Shown: positions 1,187-14,443, counted from the first letter of the stretch. The stretch: DNA of 37,718 nucleotides from a virus (IMGVR_UViG_3300033146_000046:1-37718), one strand, 5' to 3'. Notes: generated by a model not told the origin, from the letters alone. Program-made: numbers and translations.

Positions 1187-1918
1187 TTATAGGGTTTTGT
1201 TAATAAAAAATTGTTTAGGGTCAAAGTCTTTGTTCTTATAAAATAATTCATAAGCTTCTACTGCTTTTTCAACCTTTTCTTGACCTCTTGCATAAAATTC
1301 AGGTGAGCAGTCAAATATACCTAGCTGATGAGTATTTTTATCTATTACGATAAAAACCATTTCATAGCCAAATAGTTCACTATAAATATAAGCTTGAGAA
1401 TCGTAGTTAAATTTATAAGCAGACCATCTAAATTTATTAATGTCATTAGTAGTTTTTAAATCAATTACTAATCTTTCATTATGATTTACAATATCTGCTT
1501 TTCCTTTCCACATTTGACCCTCAATCTCTTTAATTGCTGGGGTTTCATATTCCGTATTACTATCACGTATCATTGATTTACATACTACATTGTCTAACAT
1601 TACGTCAGATAATTTTTCTATATTATCAACTTCGTGTTGTAATAAGCATAATTCACCACCAGACATCTCTTTATAAACTTTAGTATTCCTAGTTGACGAA
1701 GGTATAACCTTGTACTTATGCAGTTTATCTGGTTCTAGTATTGCGGTATGAAAGTATCCGCCAACTAAGAAAGCAGGCCTAGGCTCGCTAGGCTGTCCTA
1801 AAGCTAAAGGGTTTGTAAGTAAAGTTTTGATATCAGAATTACTAAGATATTTTTTACCAAAATCTCCATAATAATTTTCATCATTTCGTAACTTTTCTAT
1901 TACATCTTCTTTATTCAT
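1187..1918 (-). CDS. PD-(D/E)XK exonuclease, exonuclease VIII/RecE-like (DUF3799 type)
   Basis: This 243-residue protein shows the signature of phage and RecE-type exonucleases: YLSNSDIKTLL near residue 25, GGYFHTAILEPDK with the conserved histidine near 57, GKADIV then VIDLKTT (the D-(D/E)XK core, about 139-156), and the following YDSQAYIYSELF helix (QxxxY, about 173-184). Such enzymes chew one strand of duplex ends to expose single strands for annealing. The next gene upstream is an Erf-type annealing protein, and its stop shares a base with this start (TAATG), so the two are translationally coupled. This exonuclease/annealase pair is a standard phage recombination module. Confidence 0.88.
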   Translation of the reverse strand: MNKEDVIEKLRNDENYYGDFGKKYLSNSDIKTLLTNPLALGQPSEPRPAFLVGGYFHTAILEPDKLHKYKVIPSSTRNTKVYKEMSGGELCLLQHEVDNIEKLSDVMLDNVVCKSMIRDSNTEYETPAIKEIEGQMWKGKADIVNHNERLVIDLKTTNDINKFRWSAYKFNYDSQAYIYSELFGYEMVFIVIDKNTHQLGIFDCSPEFYARGQEKVEKAVEAYELFYKNKDFDPKQFFINKTL

Positions 1919-2433
1919 TAAAGTGTTTTAAGTTCAGCTTCTTGAGCTGAGGTTAATTGATACTTAGATTTAATAGCTTCTATTTTACCACCTGACTTAA
2001 TGTAGTCTTTAGCTTGAGCTAATTGTCTACCTGTTATGTCTTTTTTGTGTGTATTAGTCGCGTCACTATCTTGAGTATCATCAATTAGGAATAAATTTCC
2101 TAACGCGTATTTTTTTCCGTAACTAGATGCGCTACCAAATTGCTGTGGTGTTTGCATACCTTTCTGATTAAGATCAACACCAACTAGTGCTGACGCTGAA
2201 ACGTGTTCAGTACCATCGCATATTGTTGCTGTTGTCTTTAATATAGGCATAGGATCTGTATGGATCAACTCTTCGTTAATCGTAACATAAATACCAAGCT
2301 CCTTGTTAAAGGGTTTAATAGCTTCTAGAATGTCTTCGGCTGACCGGAAGTAATACTTGCCGAATGAATTAAATCTACTCTTTTTCGATTTAAATCTTAA
2401 TTGAATTTGTGATAATTTTTCGTTAATGGTCAT
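1918..2433 (-). CDS. erf: Erf-family single-strand annealing protein
   Basis: The 171-residue protein matches the Erf pattern: KYYFRSAEDILEAIKP near residues 27-41, a beta-rich middle ending HVSASALVGVD, and the diagnostic segment QFGSASSYGKKYALGNLFLIDD (about 98-119) followed by QDSDAT. Erf (phage P22) anneals complementary single strands for recombination and genome circularisation. The C-terminus (about 130-171) is a short helical tail. The start at 2433 is the first ATG after the sigma factor gene, which ends 43 bases upstream. That spacer is AT-rich, includes TTATAATAG just before the ATG, and may hold a weak promoter, but it lacks the six-copy motif found elsewhere in this arm. Confidence 0.85.
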   Translation of the reverse strand: MTINEKLSQIQLRFKSKKSRFNSFGKYYFRSAEDILEAIKPFNKELGIYVTINEELIHTDPMPILKTTATICDGTEHVSASALVGVDLNQKGMQTPQQFGSASSYGKKYALGNLFLIDDTQDSDATNTHKKDITGRQLAQAKDYIKSGGKIEAIKSKYQLTSAQEAELKTL

Positions 2434-2476
2434 ACTATTATAATTACATGTTTATTTATTAATTTACATATCTAAC

Positions 2477-3220
2477 TTACAGATAATCAAGCACTTGCGA
2501 GTGATCTACATTATCAATTAATGTGTTTACAGCTTGCCTTTTTAGCTCTGAAACACGTACATAATTACTAACTCCATCGATATTTAATCTTGCTGCTATT
2601 TGTTTAGCTGAAAGTTTTTCATCGTCAAGTCCATAAGATAATCTAAGCACTTCATACTCTGTTTCGTTTAAGTATTTTTGCATTAAACTTTTTAGATAAA
2701 TATTCAAAAGTTCTTTGTTATAAGGATCACTTTTGTCTGGTATTTGCATTACCATATCCTCGTCATTAACATTAGCGTCGATAGATAAAAATATACTATT
2801 AAAAAACATAGCAACCATTTTTTTATCTTTATTGTTTCGAATCTTATTAATAACGTGTTCAGGTAGCCTCATAGTTCCTCGATGAGAATCTATTCTTCTA
2901 CGTATTCCGCCTCTAATTCTTTTACTAAAGAATGATTTCAGTGTTTTTTCTTGGTCATCAGATTTGTCTACTGTTTCCCAATCTAATCTATCTACAGCCT
3001 TTGTTAATGCCTCACTTCCACATTGTAATAAATCCATTATTGTTAAAACTCCGCAAGCTTGTTGACTTGTTGGAAATTTTCTAGCTAATGATTCTACTAG
3101 TGGTAAGAACCTTATTATAAGTTCTTTTCTCGTATATTCTTTATACGGTTTGTCTATAGGCATAGAAGATTTTAAATCTTCTTTGTACCTAATATAATTA
3201 GCTATGCTATACTTCTTCAT
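2477..3220 (-). CDS. RNA polymerase sigma-70-family factor
   Basis: This 247-residue protein has sigma region 2 at about residues 33-118 (FLPLVESLARKF, then GVLTIMDLLQCGSEALTKAV, then KSFFSKRIRGGIRRRID), a linker with RGTMRLPEHV (region 3-like), and a C-terminal region 4 helix-turn-helix at about 186-240 (YLNETEYEVLRLSYGL, LSAKQIAARLNI, VRVSELKRQAVNTL). Region 1.1 is missing, as in many phage and alternative sigma factors. It would redirect host RNA polymerase to phage promoters. It overlaps the upstream HTH gene by 14 bases. The six-copy promoter motif in this arm is a natural candidate target, although late genes are also possible; this is inference. Confidence 0.87.
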   Translation of the reverse strand: MKKYSIANYIRYKEDLKSSMPIDKPYKEYTRKELIIRFLPLVESLARKFPTSQQACGVLTIMDLLQCGSEALTKAVDRLDWETVDKSDDQEKTLKSFFSKRIRGGIRRRIDSHRGTMRLPEHVINKIRNNKDKKMVAMFFNSIFLSIDANVNDEDMVMQIPDKSDPYNKELLNIYLKSLMQKYLNETEYEVLRLSYGLDDEKLSAKQIAARLNIDGVSNYVRVSELKRQAVNTLIDNVDHSQVLDYL

Positions 3221-3812
3221 TTAGTGTTTCTTTTTCTTGTTTTAAATCAGCACACATGTGCCTTTGTATAGTTCTTATTGAGCAATCTAGCAAACCTGCT
3301 AATCTACCGTTTGTTATAGGTTTACCAAATTCATTTAAATAAAGCATTGTATCATATATTTTAGTCTTATCAAGCTTTTGTCTACCTGACAATTGACCCA
3401 CAACCTTCATCTTTTCTTCAAAAGACATGCCGTTGTAATCTTTAAATATAATTTTACGAGATTTATTCTTAGGTGGCTCACCACCTTGTGTTACTACATC
3501 TTTAATCATATCATCTAAAGCTTTCTTGCTTATAAAGAAAGTTACAAATCCATTTTCTTTATTAGCTATAAATCTAAATACTGATTCTAAATCTGTATCT
3601 TCATTTAAATAATATAACACAAAAAAGTGCCATTTTAGTGATTTATATGTAGTAATTTTACTAGGTGTATAAAATAATCTATAGTACTCATGGGTGCCAT
3701 GTTCATAGTAATCATATTCTTTGGTACTAAGCGAAGGTTTATCATTAACAGGATCTTTCCTGTAGATGATACGTCTTTCGTTTAGCCATTTCATTTTTCT
3801 TGTATATGACAT
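3207..3812 (-). CDS. Protein of unknown function with C-terminal helix-turn-helix
   Basis: The 201-residue protein is rich in lysine, tyrosine and phenylalanine. Residues about 164-190 (GKPITNGRLAGLL then CSIRTIQRHM) have the pattern of a DNA-binding helix-turn-helix of the recombinase/Homeodomain-like type: a small-residue turn followed by a recognition helix with R-T-I-Q-R. The N-terminal 150 residues are not recognised. Its last 14 bases overlap the sigma factor gene, so the two are probably co-translated and may act together in transcription control. A DNA-binding regulator is the best reading; an anti-sigma or sigma-accessory role is speculative. Confidence 0.68.
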   Translation of the reverse strand: MSYTRKMKWLNERRIIYRKDPVNDKPSLSTKEYDYYEHGTHEYYRLFYTPSKITTYKSLKWHFFVLYYLNEDTDLESVFRFIANKENGFVTFFISKKALDDMIKDVVTQGGEPPKNKSRKIIFKDYNGMSFEEKMKVVGQLSGRQKLDKTKIYDTMLYLNEFGKPITNGRLAGLLDCSIRTIQRHMCADLKQEKETLNEEV

Positions 3813-3823
3813 TAGGGTACTAC

Positions 3824-3940
3824 TTATTTATTATTATTTGCTTTTGTCATGCGTTTGTTTTTAACAAACTTTTTTATTTTAGTTCTTATTCCAAAAATAT
3901 CTCCTGATATTAAATGGTTATATAGTTTTCTCTGTGCCAT
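3824..3940 (-). CDS. Very small basic protein, 38 aa (probable)
   Basis: The frame opens with MAQRKLYNHL at 3940 and closes with TAA at 3824. It contains about eleven lysines and arginines and has no cysteine or membrane segment. It fills the gap between two supported genes: its 5' end overlaps the upstream gene by 23 bases and its 3' end stops 11 bases before the next start, the same spacing style as its neighbours. Only the fit to the operon and the basic composition support it. A nucleic-acid-binding peptide is possible. Confidence 0.45.
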   Translation of the reverse strand: MAQRKLYNHLISGDIFGIRTKIKKFVKNKRMTKANNNK

Positions 3941-5469: not shown

Positions 5470-5765
5470 AAGTTATCTAATTTTTTGTTTAATATTTGTA
5501 ATTTTCTTTTAATAATTTTAGCTTTTTCATACTGTTCTTTGTCTTCGTATATAGCCAATAGCGTTGTAAGTCTAGCCAATTCTCCAATTAATTGCTCTTC
5601 TGTATCATCAGATAGCTCAGCAAAATAATCATCAAAGAGATCTTCGAATGTTACATCGCTGATCTCTCTGTGATCATCTAACTTAAAATTAAATTGACTA
5701 GTCAACTTATCAACAACTAAATCCGCTACCATCGCGGCAAATAAAATTTTTTCTTCGTCGTTCAT
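5466..5765 (-). CDS. Small acidic protein with UVR-like C-terminal helix
   Basis: The 99-residue protein has an acidic centre (about 30-56, with DLFDDYFAELSDDTEE) and a charged helical C-terminus (about 66-99) reading LAIYEDKEQYEKAKIIKRKL, which resembles the UVR helix of UvrB/UvrC that mediates protein pairing. This similarity is from eye only. Its ATG lies two bases after the proximal part of a promoter-like motif at 5768-5803. If that motif is a promoter, transcription would begin at or inside the ATG, so either the mRNA is leaderless or the true start is the internal methionine at residue 12 (codon 5730-5732). It is the first gene of the ligase operon and overlaps the ligase gene by four bases. 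Confidence 0.72.
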   Translation of the reverse strand: MNDEEKILFAAMVADLVVDKLTSQFNFKLDDHREISDVTFEDLFDDYFAELSDDTEEQLIGELARLTTLLAIYEDKEQYEKAKIIKRKLQILNKKLDNL

Positions 5766-5767
5766 GA

Positions 5768-5803
5768 GTATATTATCAATGGTTGATTGTATTTTGTTTG
5801 TAA
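5768..5803 (-). promoter_or_regulatory. Motif promoter P6 (leftward)
   Basis: On the minus strand this reads TTACAAA, 19 bases starting CAAAATA, then GATAATATAC. It is one of six copies with the same 7-19-10 spacing. It fills the space between two genes and points at the ligase operon. The proximal block is only two bases from the ATG. The last base of the proximal block (C) deviates from the consensus A. Confidence 0.6.
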
Positions 5804-6334
5804 TTATTGATTTCTTAATATTTGAACTAGTTTTTCAGCGTATTCTAACGCGTTTTGATGCCCAACCGCACCAATTGATCTTTGATCATTTCTAGTTTCG
5901 TTATTAGCAAAATCAGTGTACTGCATATCAACCATGTATTTAGATATAATCTTTTCAGGTTTTAACACAAATTCACACTTGTTTTGCCATACATTCCAGC
6001 AAGTTACGTGTATTTTATCTCTATCTCCACTCCATATAACATAAATATACTCTATATCACTTTGAAAATGTCCTATTCTTTGAAGATAACAACTTTCATA
6101 ATACATATCATGCACTAATTTAGCGGTTAATCTTTGTCCGTCTTGAGCAGAATTACCTTTAGTTAACAACCAGTTGGCAATTTGTACTCCTTGCCATTCA
6201 GGATAACCATCGTGATGATGATACATGTTAACATAAGCTTTATCTGCTACTATCTCTGGATTTATAGCAAATCCTTCTTCATATTTACTACTATGTTTAC
6301 GGTCTATGACCATAATATTATTTCTTGTACTCAT
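5804..6334 (-). CDS. Hypothetical phage protein, 176 aa
   Basis: The protein begins MSTRNNIMVIDRKHSSKY and contains YHHHDGYPEWQGVQIANWL (about 38-56), a pattern I recall in conserved hypothetical phage proteins that share a YHHxDGYP core. Several tryptophans and a CWNVWQNKCEF segment (about 112-122) suggest a compact globular fold with two cysteines. There is no signal peptide or membrane segment. Its start lies 16 bases downstream of a tRNA-like element (6351-6444), so the mature message could begin right after that element if it is processed. Function not recognised. Confidence 0.72.
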   Translation of the reverse strand: MSTRNNIMVIDRKHSSKYEEGFAINPEIVADKAYVNMYHHHDGYPEWQGVQIANWLLTKGNSAQDGQRLTAKLVHDMYYESCYLQRIGHFQSDIEYIYVIWSGDRDKIHVTCWNVWQNKCEFVLKPEKIISKYMVDMQYTDFANNETRNDQRSIGAVGHQNALEYAEKLVQILRNQ

Positions 6335-6350
6335 AATTTATTTAATTTAG

Positions 6351-6444
6351 TGGACGTGGCAGGACTCGAACCTGCGTATAGTCAAACATATTTTTCAACA
6401 AGTTGATCTTTGCTTGTGACTATCAAAATCCCGATTTCACGCCC
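6351..6444 (-). ncRNA. tRNA-like element TLS1 (atypical tRNA)
   Basis: On the minus strand the 5' strand GGGCGTG (6438-6444) pairs with CACGTCC (6352-6358) in a seven-pair acceptor stem with one G-T, followed by discriminator A at 6351; CCA is not encoded. A T-arm GCAGG-TTCGAGT-CCTGC (6359-6375) is perfect. A three-pair D-like hairpin ATC/GAT closes on GGGATTTT. In place of a normal anticodon arm, a six-pair stem (6378-6383 with 6418-6423) encloses 34 bases with a second hairpin ACAAG/CTTGT and no standard seven-base loop. Total length is 94 bases. It may be an atypical or decayed long-arm tRNA, or a tRNA mimic recognised by RNase P/Z. It sits six bases after one gene and 16 before the next. 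Confidence 0.65.
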
Positions 6445-6450
6445 TTTATT

Positions 6451-6708
6451 TTAGTCTAATAAAGCCATATAAGCCTTAGAATTATTGGTTCTAAACCAAG
6501 ATAAAGCTTTTTGCTGTGTGTTTATCATTTCATCATCCCAACCTCTATGATCACCAACGTAGTTTAGTCCCATAATTAAGTCATACATAGATAATTCCTC
6601 TGCATTTAGTTTATAATCTTCTCCACTAAACGGGTTTGTTACTGTATCTCCCGCGTCGTAGACGGTTCCATCGAACCATTTTGGTAAGTTGTTGTTTGTT
6701 TCTTTCAT
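6451..6708 (-). CDS. Hypothetical protein, 85 aa
   Basis: I choose the start at 6708 (MKETNNNLPKWFDGTVYDAG) rather than the in-frame ATG 42 bases upstream, because the 43-residue gene upstream ends with a TAA that shares a base with this ATG (TAATG at 6706-6710). The product contains GEDYKLNAEELSMYDLIMGL and a C-terminal KALSWFRTNNSKAYMALLD, a pattern I recall from small marine phage proteins of unknown role. There are no cysteines or membrane segments. The stop lies six bases before tRNA-like element TLS1. Confidence 0.7.
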   Translation of the reverse strand: MKETNNNLPKWFDGTVYDAGDTVTNPFSGEDYKLNAEELSMYDLIMGLNYVGDHRGWDDEMINTQQKALSWFRTNNSKAYMALLD

Positions 6709-6839
6709 TAGTATATATTTTTTTCTGCCCACTGTTGATATTCTTTCCAAGATTGCTCTTTGTTAAGGTAACCGTTGTAGACTCTACGTTTACCTAAAAA
6801 TTTAATTCCATTAAAGTTTCCGTTTTCTAAAAATTCCAT
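6708..6839 (-). CDS. Small hypothetical protein, 43 aa
   Basis: The frame starts MEFLENGNFNGIKFLGKRRV at 6839, one base after the upstream acidic gene stops, and ends in TAA overlapping the next ATG. It has a short basic patch (GKRRVYNGYLNKEQ) and a tryptophan-rich end (WKEYQQWAEKNIY). The exact fit between two genes with one-base joins is the main support. Function unknown. Confidence 0.58.
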   Translation of the reverse strand: MEFLENGNFNGIKFLGKRRVYNGYLNKEQSWKEYQQWAEKNIY

Positions 6840-6840
6840 A

Positions 6841-7308
6841 TTATTCTTCTTCTTTTTCTTCGTAATAATCTCCTGAGTCTAATAACTCATCTTTTTTCTC
6901 GTCAAATAATTCTTGATATACGTCTTGCCACCATTGTTCTAATTCATAGTTGAACTCGTATTCCATATCGTCCCATAAATGAGGTTCTACCCACACATCA
7001 CTACCTGACGTTAGTTCATCAAGAGCTCGTGAGGACCATTCAGTGTAATCTTCATAGTAAAAACCATCTTGTGATATATAAGGTTTCTCATCATAAGTAC
7101 ACCACCATATATCATAACCATCATACGTTGATTCGCTGTATATCTTTAAACTATGTCTATCATCAACATAACCGCTTGTTTTGTCTAATTTACCGCCGTG
7201 TTGTTCCTCAATATACTCTAGTAACCAAGGTCCATCTGGCTCTTCCATAAAGCCATCTTTTTCTAATTTTCCGATGATTATATCATCTGTTAATAGTTTT
7301 TTATCCAT
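6841..7308 (-). CDS. Strongly acidic hypothetical protein, 155 aa
   Basis: The protein is dominated by D, E, W and Y, with segments such as GYDIWWCTYDEKPYISQDGF (about 64-83) and an acidic tail ending DYYEEKEEE. Such charge and aromatic content is typical of phage takeover proteins and DNA mimics that bind host nucleic-acid-binding proteins, but no family is recognised, so a DNA-mimic role is only a suggestion. It has no signal or membrane segment. It begins two bases after the preceding gene ends, in the transcription unit that starts at promoter P5. Confidence 0.7.
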   Translation of the reverse strand: MDKKLLTDDIIIGKLEKDGFMEEPDGPWLLEYIEEQHGGKLDKTSGYVDDRHSLKIYSESTYDGYDIWWCTYDEKPYISQDGFYYEDYTEWSSRALDELTSGSDVWVEPHLWDDMEYEFNYELEQWWQDVYQELFDEKKDELLDSGDYYEEKEEE

Positions 7309-7310
7309 AT

Positions 7311-7676
7311 TTATTTATTTAAGTAATTTTTCTTTGCATATTTATGCAAGAAATTCAATCTAGCCACACCTGACCAGATTAGAGCTCTCGCATAAGTATT
7401 AAATTCTTTTGTAACTAATTGATTACCATCAAGAAAAGTCCATCTAGTTTTTCTTTTATACTTATGATTTAGTTGCCATATTCTATCGCTACTGTCACAT
7501 CTACGTACATAACCTGATTTATAGGTTGCTAGTGATTGTCCTGTTGGTAATTTAAATTGACGTGTACCGTTTTTCCATTGTCTTTTCGTGGTAGTTTCTA
7601 CGATACCGTCTTCGTGAAGCATAGCTAGTGCGTATGCATTTTCTAGTTGTAATTGTTCTTTTTGCCATTTAGTCAT
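7311..7676 (-). CDS. Basic hypothetical protein, 121 aa
   Basis: The product is strongly basic, with a helical start (MTKWQKEQLQLENAYALAML), a beta-rich middle containing GTRQFKLPTGQSLATYKSGYVRR split over residues about 37-59, and a lysine/arginine-rich end (LHKYAKKNYLNK). It may bind nucleic acid. It is followed directly by the very acidic 155-residue gene, so the two could form an oppositely charged pair, though nothing proves this. It overlaps the upstream gene by eight bases. Confidence 0.68.
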   Translation of the reverse strand: MTKWQKEQLQLENAYALAMLHEDGIVETTTKRQWKNGTRQFKLPTGQSLATYKSGYVRRCDSSDRIWQLNHKYKRKTRWTFLDGNQLVTKEFNTYARALIWSGVARLNFLHKYAKKNYLNK

Positions 7677-7917
7677 CTGATTCTTCTTTTAAAAATTCTG
7701 TACCATACATGATGTCTGCACCTGTAACATCAAAACTATACTTATCAGTAAATACGAGTATATCTCTAATATCATCTAGTTGTAATTGCCACCATCCATG
7801 TGAAGCCATTAATGTATACTTAAGCCTTTTAGCCGTACCGTGTTTATACGTATTTTGCCTAATTTTTTGTTTGTACACAGGTTTTAACTGTGACCACACG
7901 TTTTTAATTTTAGTCAT
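7669..7917 (-). CDS. Hypothetical protein, 82 aa (start revised)
   Basis: The longest frame begins at 7977, but that extension would place promoter motif P5 (7926-7961) inside coding sequence. I choose the methionine at 7917 (MTKIKNVWSQLKPVYKQKI), eight bases after the proximal block of P5. The product is basic at the start and acidic at the end (FLKEESDD), with a tryptophan-rich middle (HGWWQLQLDDIRDILVF, about 45-61). No domain is recognised. It is the first gene of the P5 unit. Confidence 0.65.
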   Translation of the reverse strand: MTKIKNVWSQLKPVYKQKIRQNTYKHGTAKRLKYTLMASHGWWQLQLDDIRDILVFTDKYSFDVTGADIMYGTEFLKEESDD

Positions 7918-7925
7918 AATTTTAT

Positions 7926-7961
7926 TTATATTATCGGTTAGTGTTAATATTTTGTTTGTAG
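7926..7961 (-). promoter_or_regulatory. Motif promoter P5 (leftward)
   Basis: Minus-strand reading: CTACAAA, 19 bases starting CAAAATA, then GATAATATAA, followed eight bases later by the ATG at 7917. The distal block has one change (C for T at its first base). Same spacing as the other five copies. Confidence 0.65.
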
Positions 7962-8000
7962 TATGACATTTTGTCATGGTTGCCTTTAGAGGCTTATATT

Positions 8001-8060
8001 TTAGACGTGCTCGTACGTTTTTGGGTCGAGTAACAATGCCACACTCGCATCCACGTCTAA
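8001..8060. ncRNA. Compact three-way-junction element
   Basis: A perfect nine-pair inverted repeat, TTAGACGTG at 8001-8009 and CACGTCTAA at 8052-8060, closes exactly around two hairpins: CTCG/CGAG (8010-8013 with 8027-8030) and ATGC/GCAT with loop CACACTC (8036-8050). Junction linkers are 0, 5 and 1 bases. The layout is too regular for chance in AT-rich DNA. It does not carry the conserved core of a hammerhead ribozyme. RNA fold, cruciform or protein-binding site are all possible; strand cannot be decided. Confidence 0.5.
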
Positions 8061-8126
8061 GGTGTAAGATTGCTTCATCACCATGGGATTCCCTGGTTGA
8101 TACTGTTATTCTTACTACCTATTTAG

Positions 8127-8216
8127 TAACTAGAAGAGGAATCGAACCTCTTTATCCGTCGATAGTCTTAGTCTTTCTGAGGTGTTACCCGTCCTTACTA
8201 ATTCTAGACCTAGTTA
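8127..8216 (-). ncRNA. tRNA-like element TLS2 (atypical tRNA)
   Basis: Minus-strand TAACTAGG (8209-8216) pairs with TCTAGTTA (8127-8134) to give an eight-pair acceptor stem with one G-T. It is joined directly to a perfect T-arm AGAGG-TTCGATT-CCTCT (8135-8151). A TATC-GACG-GATA hairpin next to the T-arm resembles a class II variable arm. A TTAGT/ACTAA stem enclosing 24 bases stands where the anticodon arm should be; no seven-base loop with a T33 is found. The eight-pair acceptor is unusual and occurs in selenocysteine tRNA, but the rest does not fit that tRNA. An atypical or decayed tRNA, or a tRNA mimic. Confidence 0.6.
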
Positions 8217-8304
8217 TCCAGTAATCTATTTTATTCAGTTATGTGACACAGCCTTGTTAAACGGGGTTATCCTTACGCGTCCTATTAACCTACTCGTATT
8301 TAGA

Positions 8305-8493
8305 TTACAAGTGCCATTCCTTTAATAGTTTAATGGCTGATTTCTTTATTTCATCAAAAGTTCTATCATTTAAGAATCCATCATCATAAGATATTATTCT
8401 TTCTAATTGCTTTTCTATTTGATTACAGAGTTCTAATGCTTCTCTATCCACATATTCCTCTTTCATAATTTCATATGCTTTTTTACTATCCAT
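8305..8493 (-). CDS. Small helical protein, 62 aa
   Basis: The product is charged and predicted mostly helical (MDSKKAYEIMKEEYVDREAL, then CNQIEKQLERIISYDDGFL), ending KLLKEWHL. It has one cysteine and no membrane segment. Its TAA lies in the 5' strand of an eight-pair stem that opens the structured non-coding stretch, so translation termination and RNA folding could influence each other. Function unknown. Confidence 0.6.
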   Translation of the reverse strand: MDSKKAYEIMKEEYVDREALELCNQIEKQLERIISYDDGFLNDRTFDEIKKSAIKLLKEWHL

Positions 8494-8531
8494 ATTATCT
8501 TTTTATTATTTGTTCTTCAGTATTTATTGTT

Positions 8532-8720
8532 CTACTCTCCATATATTATTAGTTCTATATCAGATTCACTATAACAATCCTGTTTTGGAAAGTTTAATTC
8601 TCTGTTTATTATTTGTACGTGTTCATCAGTGGGTTGTTTATAGCAAAAGTACATTGCTGAATATACACCTGCTAAATATGCAAACCCACTTAATATTATT
8701 ATTTTTATTTTCTTCTCCAT
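8532..8720 (-). CDS. Small single-pass membrane protein, 62 aa
   Basis: A hydrophobic segment at residues about 5-28 (KIKIIILSGFAYLAGVYSAM) follows a short basic start (MEKK), which predicts one membrane helix with the N-terminus inside; the acidic C-terminal 30 residues would face out. It could also be read as an uncleaved signal anchor. It overlaps the upstream zinc-ribbon gene by 16 bases. Phages often encode such proteins for superinfection exclusion or lysis control, but nothing here decides the role. Confidence 0.62.
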   Translation of the reverse strand: MEKKIKIIILSGFAYLAGVYSAMYFCYKQPTDEHVQIINRELNFPKQDCYSESDIELIIYGE

Positions 8721-8893
8721 GCTTTGTGTACTAATGCGGAAGTTTCTTGTGATACAACTTGTACTTCTAACACTTGTTTGTTAGCTATAATTGGTATGTA
8801 GCTAACTTTTTGAGTTGAACTACAACTTACACAGTTGTTATAACCTAGCTCTATACGAACTGGGTGCACTTTATTTCCACATTTACAATACAT
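8705..8893 (-). CDS. Small zinc-ribbon protein, 62 aa
   Basis: The start MYCKCGNKVHPVRIELGYNN followed by CVSCSS gives two cysteine pairs, C3-x-C5 and C21-x2-C24, with a histidine at 10: a likely zinc knuckle. The rest is beta-rich with a basic end (VHKAWRRK). DksA/TraR-type regulators have related clusters, but this one is shorter and lacks the coiled coil, so no assignment is made. Its start lies 17 bases downstream of promoter motif P1. Confidence 0.65.
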   Translation of the reverse strand: MYCKCGNKVHPVRIELGYNNCVSCSSTQKVSYIPIIANKQVLEVQVVSQETSALVHKAWRRK

Positions 8894-8910
8894 ATTTTAT
8901 TTATACTTTA

Positions 8911-8946
8911 TTATATTATCAACTGCTTGCAGTATTATATTTGTAA
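8911..8946 (-). promoter_or_regulatory. Motif promoter P1 (leftward)
   Basis: Minus-strand reading: TTACAAA, 19 bases starting TATAATA, then GATAATATAA. It lies entirely in the gap between two genes, 17 bases from the zinc-ribbon gene start. Confidence 0.68.
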
Positions 8947-9192
8947 TCACTTTGCTATAATTCTAAGTTGTTCTACACTATATTTTTTAATACTTGTTCG
9001 CCACATTTTATTATGTGTGAATTTATATTGCTGAGGAAAGCTCTTTTTTTGCCTCACAGTGCTTTTTTTGTATTCTTTATCAGTAAGTCCACTGCATTCA
9101 CCGTGAATTTTAATCATTTGTTGGTGATGATGCTTGCGAGCAAGTTTCTTTTGTTTACTATACTCGCATAATTCTTTCATGTTACTTACCAT
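8947..9192 (-). CDS. Small basic protein, 81 aa
   Basis: The protein is rich in lysine and histidine (KQKKLARKHHHQQMIKIHGE, about 13-32), followed by LTDKEYKKSTVRQKKSF. It probably binds nucleic acid. The start at 9192 overlaps the upstream gene by seven bases; the methionine at 9180 (MKELCEYSKQ) would avoid the overlap and is an equal candidate. The stop directly abuts promoter motif P1. No family recognised. Confidence 0.6.
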   Translation of the reverse strand: MVSNMKELCEYSKQKKLARKHHHQQMIKIHGECSGLTDKEYKKSTVRQKKSFPQQYKFTHNKMWRTSIKKYSVEQLRIIAK

Positions 9193-9401
9193 TTTAACGG
9201 AGCTTCGATAAAAGTTAAACCTTTGTAGTTAAACCAGTTGTCTTTACCAAACTTAAATTGTTCGATACCATCCTCGTCAATACCTTGTGATTTTTCTTTA
9301 AAGCCAAATGAATTAGGCAGGTCACCTACATGATAACCTTTGTACTCGATTCCGTTTAGATAAATCTTATGTTTATCTTTAGTAAATTTAATTGTTTTCA
9401 T
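9186..9401 (-). CDS. Small hypothetical protein, 71 aa
   Basis: The sequence alternates short beta-like runs with glycines and aromatics (KIYLNGIEYKGYHVGDLPNS, then FGKDNWFNYKGLTFIEAPLKW), suggesting a small beta fold. It begins 13 bases after the proximal block of promoter motif P2. No cysteine, signal or membrane segment. Function unknown. Confidence 0.65.
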   Translation of the reverse strand: MKTIKFTKDKHKIYLNGIEYKGYHVGDLPNSFGFKEKSQGIDEDGIEQFKFGKDNWFNYKGLTFIEAPLKW

Positions 9402-9414
9402 ATTTTAATCTTTA

Positions 9415-9450
9415 TTATATTATCAATTACTTGTTATATTATGTTTGTAA
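9415..9450 (-). promoter_or_regulatory. Motif promoter P2 (leftward)
   Basis: Minus-strand reading: TTACAAA, 19 bases starting CATAATA, then GATAATATAA. It overlaps the last codons and stop of the upstream 67-residue gene, and is 13 bases from the downstream ATG. Confidence 0.68.
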
Positions 9451-9626
9451 GCATGTGATTTAGCTATAGATTGTCTCCATTGCCACTCACTTTTGCGATA
9501 GTTGATGTCATTGCACCACTTTTTCCAACCTCTACTAGTATCATTCTCACCATACTTAGCTTCGAACTCTAGTACTTGTTTTAGCTTGTCTGCTATTTTA
9601 TTAGCATCATAGTCTTTAAATTGCAT
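9423..9626 (-). CDS. Small hypothetical protein, 67 aa
   Basis: The product has a helical start (KIADKLKQVLEFEAKYGEND) and a tryptophan-rich basic half (RGWKKWCNDINYRKSEWQWR). Its last nine codons are shared with promoter motif P2, so the C-terminus SHAYKHNITSN is constrained by that site. No domain is recognised; compact, basic, probably cytoplasmic. Confidence 0.6.
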   Translation of the reverse strand: MQFKDYDANKIADKLKQVLEFEAKYGENDTSRGWKKWCNDINYRKSEWQWRQSIAKSHAYKHNITSN

Positions 9627-9633
9627 AGTTAAG

Positions 9634-9783
9634 TTATTTATTAGTTGATTTATAAAAGTCTATTCTGTTAAGAACATCTTGTCTAGTTATTTTATTTTCC
9701 ATTTGCAATAGTATATCACTTGACATATCTATTTTTTTACCATTATCACAGGTTAAAATCCAACTTCTATTATACATAGTCAT
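9634..9783 (-). CDS. Very small protein, 49 aa
   Basis: The frame starts MTMYNRSWILTCDNGKKIDM and ends DFYKSTNK. An alternative start is the second methionine two codons on. The predicted fold is a beta hairpin then a helix (SSDILLQMENKITRQDVLNR). It overlaps the upstream 33-residue frame by 14 bases and stops seven bases before the next gene. Fit to operon spacing is the main support. Confidence 0.52.
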   Translation of the reverse strand: MTMYNRSWILTCDNGKKIDMSSDILLQMENKITRQDVLNRIDFYKSTNK

Positions 9784-9871
9784 TTATTAATTCAATTAGT
9801 GTTTCTAATGTTATATCACCTTCGATAAACATTAACCAATAGTCCATTTTATCTATTTCTTGTTTATTCAT
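9770..9871 (-). CDS. Very small acidic protein, 33 aa (possible)
   Basis: The frame starts MNKQEIDKMDYWLMFIEGDI inside the end of the 70-residue gene (eight-base overlap) and ends inside the next frame (14-base overlap). It is acidic and amphipathic. A start-stop frame of this size could be chance, but the double overlap follows the local pattern and otherwise a gap of 80 bases would be left uncoded. Confidence 0.42.
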   Translation of the reverse strand: MNKQEIDKMDYWLMFIEGDITLETLIELINDYV

Positions 9872-10076
9872 TTTTTCCGTATTTATATAATTCATTTTCT
9901 ATATTAAGTAAAGCTAATTTATAACCATAGTTTTTAGCCATTTGCATTAGTAAATAGTCATTACTTCCTTTATTAGCTTCTGTAAATTGTAGAAGATAAT
10001 CTTGATCTGGAGTCGCGACTATACCTCTTTCTAATTTATTTAGCTCTGTGTCGATATACTTTTTTAACTCTACCAT
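9864..10076 (-). CDS. Small acidic helical protein, 70 aa
   Basis: The product is mostly helical (MVELKKYIDTELNKLERGIV, then NYGYKLALLNIENELYKYGK) with a central DQDYLLQF. No cysteine, signal or membrane segment. It overlaps the upstream membrane-protein frame by seven bases. Function unknown. Confidence 0.6.
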   Translation of the reverse strand: MVELKKYIDTELNKLERGIVATPDQDYLLQFTEANKGSNDYLLMQMAKNYGYKLALLNIENELYKYGKNE

Positions 10077-10204
10077 CCGCCGTAAGTTATAGTTGGGTTA
10101 TTAAATGCTAAGTGGAATATAATAGTTATAATTCCTGTTGCTGCTAGTGTTCCTAGCGAGATTAATATTGCATTAATCGCATAGTGTTGAAATTTTCTTT
10201 TCAT
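10070..10204 (-). CDS. Small single-pass membrane protein, 44 aa
   Basis: A basic start (MKRKFQHYA) precedes a hydrophobic helix at about residues 9-33 (INAILISLGTLAATGIITII), then FHLAFNNPTITYGGW. This predicts one membrane helix, N-terminus inside. It begins 21 bases after tRNA-like element TLS3 and overlaps the next gene by seven bases. Likely acts in the host inner membrane; role unknown. Confidence 0.58.
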   Translation of the reverse strand: MKRKFQHYAINAILISLGTLAATGIITIIFHLAFNNPTITYGGW

Positions 10205-10225
10205 AATTTAGTTTTAAATATTAGT

Positions 10226-10269
10226 TGACTGAGCGGGTTTCGAACCCACTTACGTATCTATACCAGTCG
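10226..10269 (-). ncRNA. tRNA-like mini-element TLS3
   Basis: On the minus strand CGACTGG (10263-10269) pairs with TCAGTCA (10226-10232) over six positions (one G-T; the first pair is a mismatch). A perfect-length T-arm GTGGG-TTCGAAA-CCCGC (10233-10249, one T-G pair) follows. Only 13 bases (TATAGATACGTAA) lie between, so D and anticodon arms are absent. It begins 21 bases after one gene stop and ends 21 bases before the next ATG. It looks like a minimal acceptor/T-arm mimic; the remnant of a decayed tRNA is the alternative. Confidence 0.52.
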
Positions 10270-10290
10270 ATTTTGTTTTAAGAGTGTTGT

Positions 10291-10524
10291 TTACTGTACT
10301 TCAACAACACCTCTAACACTTACAGGAACATTAGTTGAACTTGTATAAGAGTTATACTTTTGAAAACAATTAAGAGAATTTAATTTATCTTTCATGATCT
10401 CATACACTTTATCGTGATTGTAAGTACAAGTTTTACCACTTTTGAATTCAACATTGATTTGAGTGTTTTTACCGATTAGTGATTTGCGAATAACAAATCT
10501 TTTTGAGTTAATTGTGTTTGACAT
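10291..10524 (-). CDS. Small hypothetical protein, 77 aa
   Basis: The protein begins MSNTINSKRFVIRKSLIGKN, carries a beta-like INVEFKSGKTCTYNHDKVYE (about 24-43) and ends VPVSVRGVVEVQ. It is slightly basic, with two cysteines. It lies downstream of promoter motif P3 with an unusually long 69-base leader that contains a six-pair inverted repeat (TGATTA 10569-10574, TAATCA 10584-10589). Its position near the divergent junction suggests early expression. Function unknown. Confidence 0.65.
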   Translation of the reverse strand: MSNTINSKRFVIRKSLIGKNTQINVEFKSGKTCTYNHDKVYEIMKDKLNSLNCFQKYNSYTSSTNVPVSVRGVVEVQ

Positions 10525-10593
10525 AATTTTGATTTTAATTTAAGTTATTATTTATTTATTTATTTAGTTGATTATTAATTAGTTAATCATTTA

Positions 10594-10629
10594 TTATATT
10601 ATCAAAGTATGATGATATTATGTTTGTAA
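10594..10629 (-). promoter_or_regulatory. Motif promoter P3 (leftward)
   Basis: Minus-strand reading: TTACAAA, 19 bases starting CATAATA, then GATAATATAA. It is 69 bases from the downstream ATG, longer than the other copies (2-17). A small inverted repeat just downstream may be an operator. Confidence 0.68.
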
Positions 10630-10654
10630 TGAGTGTATATTTGTTTATTAGTTA

Positions 10655-10690
10655 ATAGTGTCAAGATGTCATTGCACTAAGTGACACTAT
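10655..10690. repeat. Nine-pair inverted repeat
   Basis: ATAGTGTCA (10655-10663) and TGACACTAT (10682-10690) are perfect inverted copies around 18 bases. It lies 14 bases downstream of the 58-residue frame and upstream of P3. There is no T-run after it in the leftward direction, so an operator or replication-protein site is as likely as a terminator. Confidence 0.45.
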
Positions 10691-10704
10691 GTCATATAGT
10701 TATA

Positions 10705-10881
10705 TTATTTAATTAGTTTATATTTTAAATAGTTTTTATTTAGTAATTTAGTTAGATTATTAGTATTAATTGTGTGAGTGAATATTAATTTGTTATTTAA
10801 TATTATAAAGTTATAATGTAAGTTATTAATAATGAGTGATGTTATTAATTTAGTTTGATATTTGTTTGTTATTAGTTGCAT
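10705..10881 (-). CDS. Small very AT-rich open frame, 58 aa (possible)
   Basis: The frame starts MQLITNKYQTKLITSLIINN and ends LKYKLIK. Codons are almost all A/T, and residues are mainly I, L, N, K and T, so a chance frame in AT-rich DNA must be considered. In favour is its place: its ATG is 12 bases after promoter motif P4, the same distance as for P1, P2 and P5. If real it is the first gene of the left arm. Function unknown. Confidence 0.42.
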   Translation of the reverse strand: MQLITNKYQTKLITSLIINNLHYNFIILNNKLIFTHTINTNNLTKLLNKNYLKYKLIK

Positions 10882-10893
10882 TGTTATTATTTA

Positions 10894-10929
10894 TTATATT
10901 ATCATAGTGATATAATATTAAGTTTGTAA
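10894..10929 (-). promoter_or_regulatory. Motif promoter P4 (leftward)
   Basis: Minus-strand reading: TTACAAA, 19 bases starting CTTAATA, then GATAATATAA. It is the copy closest to the divergence of the two arms and the only one not preceded by a leftward gene. Confidence 0.66.
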
Positions 10930-11170
10930 ATTAGTTCCTCCCGGGGATAAACGTGAAACATTATAGGCTATACAATAAAAAAAGGTAAAACATTTTGAAC
11001 TAAGCAACACAATCTTTCTCTATAAGCAGCTAGGTATGACATTAGGTAGTTATATTATATAAGTAGTACCCTGTTGTCAGCCCCTTATAATATATAAGAT
11101 CCTATTCTATGTAAATTTCTATAAATATGTGTAAGTATACTAATGTACACTTCACTTAAAAAACAACACT
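10930..11170. promoter_or_regulatory. Divergent intergenic region upstream of the right arm
   Basis: No coding frame is supported in these 241 bases. A GC island CCTCCCGGGG (10937-10946) stands out in AT-rich DNA. Two near-identical 14-mers lie 35 bases apart: TTATATTATATAAG (11050-11063) and TTATAATATATAAG (11085-11098); the second forms a CTTATA-ATA-TATAAG palindrome. A TATAAATAT (about 11131) occurs 40 bases before the first right-arm gene. Together these could hold the rightward promoter, operators or a replication origin. None can be proven by reading. Confidence 0.4.
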
Positions 11171-13771: not shown

Positions 13772-13828
13772 AGTAAAATTACACTTTAACAAGTGACTAT
13801 ATAAATATACAATAAACAAACAACAATT

Positions 13829-14443
13829 ATGGCAACAACATTTATTAACTTAATAGTTTCAGATGGTGGTGTTTCTGGTGAAGGCGGTTTTATATCAGAG
13901 CCTTTTATGAATGGTGATAACTTAATTAACACTGATATCATTACGTTTATTAAACCAGTAACAATCAATGGACTTAGTCCAAATTATATTGAAATCTATA
14001 CAAACATTCCTGCAAACACTCTAGAGGTAGCTGCTGGTCAAGGAACAACTGAGCAAGTACTTAAAGAAAGAGTATACAAACTAGAAGTGTCAAAAGCTCA
14101 ATTTGGTGATCCTTCAGGCGCTGCTAATAAACCTTCAGCAGAATGGATGGCGAAAGCTAAAAAAGCTATATCAGCAGCACTAAGTAATATATATTTTCCA
14201 GACTCAGGGCGAACAACTGTATCGCTACCAAGAGATGGAGGAGAACAAGTATATTTTAGAAGTATTAGATTACAATACCCAACAGCTAGTACTAACATCG
14301 CAGTTTCTGCATCAAGTGAAGGAGCTAATCCAGGAGGTCCTCCAGAAGGTGGATTTGATGTGGCAGATGGAGGTCCAGGTGCAGATGGAGGTCCAGGTTC
14401 GGCAGAACAAGAGGGTATTCCACCAGGCGAAGACTTTTCATAA
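13829..14443 (+). CDS. Probable tail or virion protein with Gly/Pro-rich tail, 204 aa
   Basis: The N-terminal two thirds are globular (FINLIVSDGGVSGEGGFISE, then KPSAEWMAKAKKAISAAL). The C-terminal 45 residues are flexible and rich in G, P, E and D (GGPPEGG, GGPGADGGPG), with no lysine or arginine; this collagen-like stretch may be a linker or spike. It is encoded in part by a perfect tandem 18-base duplication (14363-14398). A 57-base spacer upstream contains TATATAAATATAC, similar to the TATAAATAT before the first right-arm gene. Function unknown. Confidence 0.62.
   Translation: MATTFINLIVSDGGVSGEGGFISEPFMNGDNLINTDIITFIKPVTINGLSPNYIEIYTNIPANTLEVAAGQGTTEQVLKERVYKLEVSKAQFGDPSGAANKPSAEWMAKAKKAISAALSNIYFPDSGRTTVSLPRDGGEQVYFRSIRLQYPTASTNIAVSASSEGANPGGPPEGGFDVADGGPGADGGPGSAEQEGIPPGEDFS
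14363..14398 (+). repeat. Perfect 18-base tandem duplication
   Basis: GCAGATGGAGGTCCAGGT occurs twice head to tail and encodes two copies of ADGGPG in the Gly/Pro-rich tail. The lack of differences suggests recent slippage or duplication. Confidence 0.8.

Follow-up and report, generated by a model that had tools for sequence, protein, structure and literature searches.

The 37.7-kb virus record IMGVR_UViG_3300033146_000046 (hereafter the window, analyzed as a whole from position 1 to 37718) carries in its left arm six copies of a long two-block motif, named class E here, which are almost certainly real promoters of a phage-specific class serving the early genes of this arm, judging from features of the sequence. 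The terminase and portal proteins match those of Flavobacterium phages of the genus Elemovirus, as well as those of Cellulophaga phages (phi40:1, phi13:2) and of Tenacibaculum and Maribacter phages, and the group to which the window belongs is a little-known family of marine flavobacterial podoviruses that is widespread and uncultured. The six sites are as follows.

10894 to 10929, minus strand: predicted class E promoter 1, at the start of the left arm; exact match, 44 bits; predicted +1 at 10891, 10-nt leader to the ATG at 10881
10594 to 10629, minus strand: predicted class E promoter 2; exact match; predicted +1 at 10591, 67-nt leader; precedes the conserved first left-arm gene (10291 to 10524)
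9415 to 9450, minus strand: predicted class E promoter 3; exact match; predicted +1 at 9412, 11-nt leader to the ATG at 9401
8911 to 8946, minus strand: predicted class E promoter 4; exact match; predicted +1 at 8908, 15-nt leader to the ATG at 8893
7926 to 7961, minus strand: predicted class E promoter 5; one mismatch, at the first base; predicted +1 at 7923, 6-nt leader to the ATG at 7917
5768 to 5803, minus strand: predicted class E promoter 6; one mismatch, at the last base; predicted +1 at 5765, which is the A of the ATG, leader of 0 nt (leaderless)

All six point leftward from the positions at which a previous sequence-only reading of the window had put them, and the 19-base gap that it reported between the two blocks is present in six of six. 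Its shared motif is exact in four of the six; the site at 5768 to 5803 ends in ATAC and that at 7926 to 7961 begins with CTACAAA. Distances from the motif end to the start codon (2, 8, 17, 13, 69, and 12 bases, from the leftmost site to the rightmost) agree with those given earlier. When up to two mismatches are allowed, the window contains these six matches only, with 0.11 expected from dinucleotide-preserving shuffles, none of which reached six, and a position weight matrix made from any five of the sites recovers the sixth without scoring as high anywhere else in the window. No tRNA or Rfam elements lie beneath the six sites.

The same arrangement recurs in 80 close relatives, viral metagenome contigs that may be fragments and that total 1.3 Mb, obtained via the phage-encoded sigma factor described below. 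The gap between the two blocks is 19 bases in 101 sites and 18 in three, with none at 17, 20, or 21, and a reversed-pattern control gives no matches. On scanning with a matrix, 293 sites fall on the sigma-gene strand versus two on the opposite strand; in whole records the sites concentrate within the opening kilobases of the left arm, with essentially none in the right arm. The restriction to the left arm that was claimed for the window holds both there and in the relatives (236 sites upstream of the sigma gene, 15 downstream, and almost none in the right arm), and the motif search that had been proposed as a check finds nonrandom placement, with a fixed gap, on one strand, in one arm, and before start codons. 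The family consensus, TTACAAAC[AT]AAATAC[GA]A followed by nine less conserved bases and then GATAATATA, is longer than the motif first described; in full, class E reads TTACAAACWAAATACGA-N9-GATAATATA. The A/T block reported for the beginning of the spacer is confirmed and extends further than claimed, positions 8 to 17 reading CWAAATACGA across the family, and in the window this block is eroded after position 14.

Start codons provide a register for the motif. An ATG lies within 30 nt of the predicted +1 at 170 of 214 class E sites (79%) versus 56 of 214 random positions (26%). Counted from the last T of GATAAT, the A of the ATG shows a single sharp peak at a distance of 7, in 41 of 266 class E sites, which represent 12 protein families and 25 loci; if GATAAT is placed at -12 to -7, the ATG of those 41 sites falls exactly at +1. 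Fixed in this way by the ATG, GATAAT is the predicted -10 box of class E, and the same register (motif position 39 = +1) makes the 5' 17-bp block span -38 to -22, with its center at -30. How the sites were searched for does not account for the spacing, strand, and ATG results. In Flavobacterium psychrophilum, leaderless mRNAs make up a minority of 5.5% (PMC9723704).

Sigma-A promoters of Bacteroidota have the elements TTTG and TAnnTTTG (PMC6847099, PMC9723704), and in F. psychrophilum the sigma-A motif is TAnnTTTG, the other factors being of sigma54 and extracytoplasmic function (ECF) types (PMC9723704). The distance between the two elements is similar in class E and in class L, a second class described below, but neither has a TTTG at -8 to -5 or a TA at -12/-11. 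As had been stated for the window, the usual Bacteroidota promoter is not matched; there is no TAnnTTTG -7 box, and the -10 is GATAATATA in class E or RATWATA in class L. Host-type -7 boxes occur only at chance level in the intergenic DNA of these phages, left arm included, and host sigma-A promoters were rejected for the left arm. A bidirectional reading, with TAnnTTTG on the opposite strand over CAAANNTA, was also rejected, as it fits just part of the sites and a partner element at the right distance is missing. With two mismatches allowed, class E occurs in one of 52 genomes of one host family. This sole site, in a Flavobacteriales chromosome, is a perfect consensus (L349 323 to 355; G087:C2:984324) upstream of a TerB-like open reading frame (ORF) and near parA/parB, and it may be chance, a relic, or a phage-responsive host promoter. 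One class E site is also present at L348 3099 to 3131, in a 64-kb contig of a Prochlorococcus single-cell genome (G086:C9), followed by a gene like that at 6841 to 7308 of the window; the contig has little other match to the family and no sigma gene, and the site is probably part of a promoter-gene cassette moved between phages.

Class E is confined to one phage family and is oriented, fixed in spacing, and placed before genes. The phage-specific promoter class that the sequence-only reading offered as a hypothesis is strongly supported by the spacing, strand bias, start-codon position, and ATG spike at the predicted +1, and further by the near-absence from the 52 host-family genomes and the mismatch with the Flavobacterium sigma-A consensus. 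We found no report of either class E or class L motifs in the literature searched.

Right-arm upstream regions of the relatives contain a different dyad, GTAA-N16-GTAA..AT, with 39 sites at a spacing of 16 and no more than 10 at any other (right-arm strand), which was refined to GTAAA-N15-GTRATWATA and is designated class L. Class L sites stand before structural operons and, in the genomes examined, also on the sigma strand directly 3' of the sigma gene, before the Erf gene, where the class starts no more than 20 nt past the sigma stop codon (mostly 9 to 19 nt) in 74 of 78 relatives. The window has three matches to GTAAA-N15-GTRANTATA, with 0.01 expected. The ATG register of class L, in 22 of 85 class L sites, is that of class E, and the two classes would therefore have a common -10 box of the form RATWAT. 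The predicted class L promoters and the genes around the sigma factor are as follows.

3207 to 3812, minus strand: helix-turn-helix (HTH) protein, 201 aa, overlapping the sigma gene; weak Pfam HTH_11 match; not the reader of class E
2477 to 3220, minus strand: sigma-70 family factor, 247 aa, with regions 2 and 4; PHROG 351 sigma factor, E=5.8e-18; TIGR02937; SigA chains by fold
2439 to 2467, minus strand: predicted class L promoter between the sigma and Erf genes; predicted +1 at 2433, the A of the Erf ATG; same place in 74/78 relatives
1918 to 2433, minus strand: Erf-type single-stranded DNA (ssDNA) annealing protein, first gene behind class L; PHROG 155, E=4.3e-34
11111 to 11139, plus strand: predicted class L promoter heading the right arm; pattern match; predicted +1 at 11145
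13773 to 13801, plus strand: predicted class L promoter upstream of the right-arm gene at 13829; pattern match; predicted +1 at 13807

That the left arm encodes a sigma factor, as had been recognized earlier, is borne out by profile and fold matches. The protein scores 46.7 bits against TIGR02937 (cut-off, 42.9) and just below the cut-off for the Pfam region 2 and region 4 models, its best Foldseek matches are SigA chains, and it has no match in the annotated phage collection. In the alignment of region 2.4, G and R stand at the Q and T of SigA and are invariant in the 80 relatives. The corresponding residues of Escherichia coli sigma-70 contact position -12; the phage promoters have a purine there, which the G and R fit. 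Among records longer than 55 kb, all 15 with a true class E motif encode the sigma factor versus none of the six with a chance-level match only; five shorter records (40 to 50 kb) have a true class E motif and no sigma gene, and these could be incomplete or real exceptions. The sigma-less relatives MW202828 and Elemovirus have neither class E nor class L in the stretches tested, and the first 50 kb of phi40:1, also sigma-less, has no class L. In its left arm, MW202828 (L204) has 14 copies of a perfect 16-bp palindrome, GTGTCGTTAACGACAC (43745 to 51768, with one at 55154), many of them lying before start codons; a gene of this record is annotated as a repressor, and the palindromes look like a repressor/operator system in place of the E and L promoters.

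Directly before the pair of HTH and sigma genes, the 80 relatives have no class E site, no class L site, and four host-type boxes, and the sigma factor would therefore be made by read-through from E promoters. An inverted repeat, TGTGACA...TGTCACA, brackets the HTH start codon in most of 32 relatives (alignment A4), and its version in the window is ATGACA/TGTCAT at about 3805 to 3850 on the minus strand. RNA folding of this repeat is energetically weak, and it could therefore equally well be an operator for the HTH protein or a hairpin.

The class E 5' block differs between groups of relatives, being TTACAA, TTCGAA, or ACACGG (ACAA/CGAA/ACGG), and is uniform over all promoters within one genome. 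Sigma region 4.2 is the same across these groups, with L126 (TTACAA) and L130 (TTCGAA) both having the recognition stretch GSASYVRISELKKQAV; no DNA-contacting sigma position was found that separates the groups, the only residue splitting TTACAA from TTCGAA phages being position 5, near the N terminus. Class L retains GTAAA in all block groups. Because the block switches while region 4.2 and the class L GTAAA do not, something other than sigma region 4 presumably reads the class E block.

Several candidates for that reader were rejected. There are whole records, of either block type, that keep the motif without having the HTH neighbor of the sigma factor. The conserved first left-arm protein (10291 to 10524) has no Pfam match, and no residue pattern in it follows block type; it was rejected as the activator. 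It has an almost invariant basic stretch, KRFVIRKSLIGKN, and is duplicated in several relatives; the protein is a candidate host-takeover or promoter factor. Giant virion-type ORFs of 2,300 to 3,400 aa are kept across the family at the right-arm end of the relatives (e.g., L287 11048 to 19243), that of MW202828 being 3,859 aa, and no domain is recognizable in them. These giants do not split by block type once a length filter is removed, and as crAss-type or N4-type polymerases they lack the DxDxD catalytic signature, the two DxDGD strings found, in one record, being chance; neither a single sequence nor a profile gives a PDB match.

From the spacing, strand bias, ATG register, co-occurrence, and block switching of the two motifs we infer that the sites are promoters, what may read them, and in which order they may act. 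We favor, with modest confidence, a model in which class E promoters drive the left-arm genes, with transcription starting 7 nt past the last T of GATAAT, sometimes on the ATG itself, and with the 17-bp block TTACAAACWAAATACGA substituting for an ordinary -35 box. The sigma gene would be reached by read-through from the E promoters, and its product would then open the class L promoters that serve the recombination module and the structural operons of the right arm. Since E and L have a common -10 box and register and neither fits host sigma-A, host core polymerase with the phage sigma most likely acts at both -10s, and a separate, putative phage factor probably reads the -30 block at E. The proposal that the phage sigma reads class E is thus retained for the -10 box, in keeping with the co-occurrence of sigma and motif, and is not retained for the TTACAAA "-35" block, which changes among phages that have one and the same sigma recognition helix; class L rather than class E directly follows the sigma gene, and the sigma gene lies downstream of the E sites with no recognizable promoter of its own. 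As to order, E may need sigma and be self-amplifying after a low start, or E may be read first by something else, with sigma serving L only. Several points weigh against the favored model: the relatives do not count as independent samples, the way in which sites were collected partly imposes the near-invariance of GATAAT in class E, no gene tracks block type among 18 records and there is thus no candidate second factor, and, if E needs sigma, the model does not account for how sigma synthesis begins.

It is possible, if doubtful, that sigma plays no part at class E and reads L only, the E sites being immediate-early promoters used, before any phage sigma is present, either by host polymerase that an injected or very early phage factor redirects or by a polymerase carried in the virion. 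This would suit the position of the E sites at the head of the left arm before the sigma gene, the lack of any other promoter for sigma, the start of class L exactly behind it, and the variation of the E block independently of sigma; however, the RATWAT box and ATG register common to both classes argue for one initiation factor, and the giant virion proteins have no polymerase motif or PDB match. That class E is first read not by a sigma-70-type holoenzyme but by a virion-delivered polymerase or initiation factor, with a specificity that switches among close relatives, is unlikely; if true, it would explain how a phage whose early arm has no host-type promoters begins its program. Improbable, too, is the arrangement originally suggested for the window, in which class E is read by the phage sigma without any other factor, TTACAAA being the -35 and GATAATATAA the -10. 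Sigma and motif do co-occur and a 19-bp gap suits a two-element promoter, but the same region 4.2 helix is found with TTACAA or TTCGAA, conservation continues through the supposed spacer to position 17, and class L has a different -35, GTAAA, in the same phages.

The sites are very unlikely to be operators, or replication or packaging signals, bound by a DNA-binding protein and not promoters at all. Repetition within one arm would be in keeping with such a role, as would the operator-like palindromes in the same arm of sigma-less MW202828, but class E is asymmetric, always gene-oriented, and has the start codon at a fixed register. We consider it least credible that class E is an ordinary host promoter class copied by the phage; the perfect chromosomal copy upstream of the TerB-like gene is the point in its favor, whereas only that one Flavobacteriales genome of the 52 has a site, which goes most of the way to excluding a host regulon of these sites in this one family, and the published flavobacterial motifs differ.

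In T4 middle promoters a MotA box centered on -30 takes the place of the -35, the -10 is kept, and sigma is appropriated (PMC6755090). Class E is like these in having a -30-centered box for the -35, a -10 box, and exact spacing, a comparison of position only, and in that host polymerase is presumably reused; it differs in its unrelated 17-bp block and in its -10, GATAAT, which is not the sigma-70 consensus. Unlike T4, the class E phages have their own sigma and a block that changes between close relatives, and no MotA or AsiA relatives were matched among the left-arm proteins searched (PHROGs and Pfam, covering part of the small ORFs). SPO1 gp28 and T4 gp55 are phage sigmas that switch host polymerase to phage-only promoters in temporal order, and class L fits this pattern of phage-sigma promoter classes, although its consensus is unrelated and it is accompanied by a second class with the same -10 register but its own -30 block. 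Promoters of the sigma-28/FliA type have the form TAAA-N15-GCCGATAA. Class L resembles them in its TAAA, 15-bp gap, G..ATAA-like -10 (GTGATAATA), and spacing peak at one value, but has no GCC and a -10 that does not match GCCGATAA; the geometry of class E differs from this type. The phage sigma itself scores far below the cut-offs of the FliA models (31.8 versus 201 bits, and 42.7 to 47.0 versus 189.6 for FliA_WhiG in two relatives).

The predicted starts provide a two-class promoter map, from sequence alone, for a phage family whose hosts use an unusual sigma-A. It makes testable how transcription gets under way when host-type promoters are missing, whether a single phage sigma acts at both promoter classes, and which protein reads a -30 block with a specificity that shifts between close relatives while sigma stays the same. 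Both classes could serve as orthogonal promoters in Bacteroidota. We note that the window also encodes a phage GroEL (14820 to 16373), and that MW202828 and Elemovirus, among the relatives, have an annotated GroES gene adjoining GroEL.

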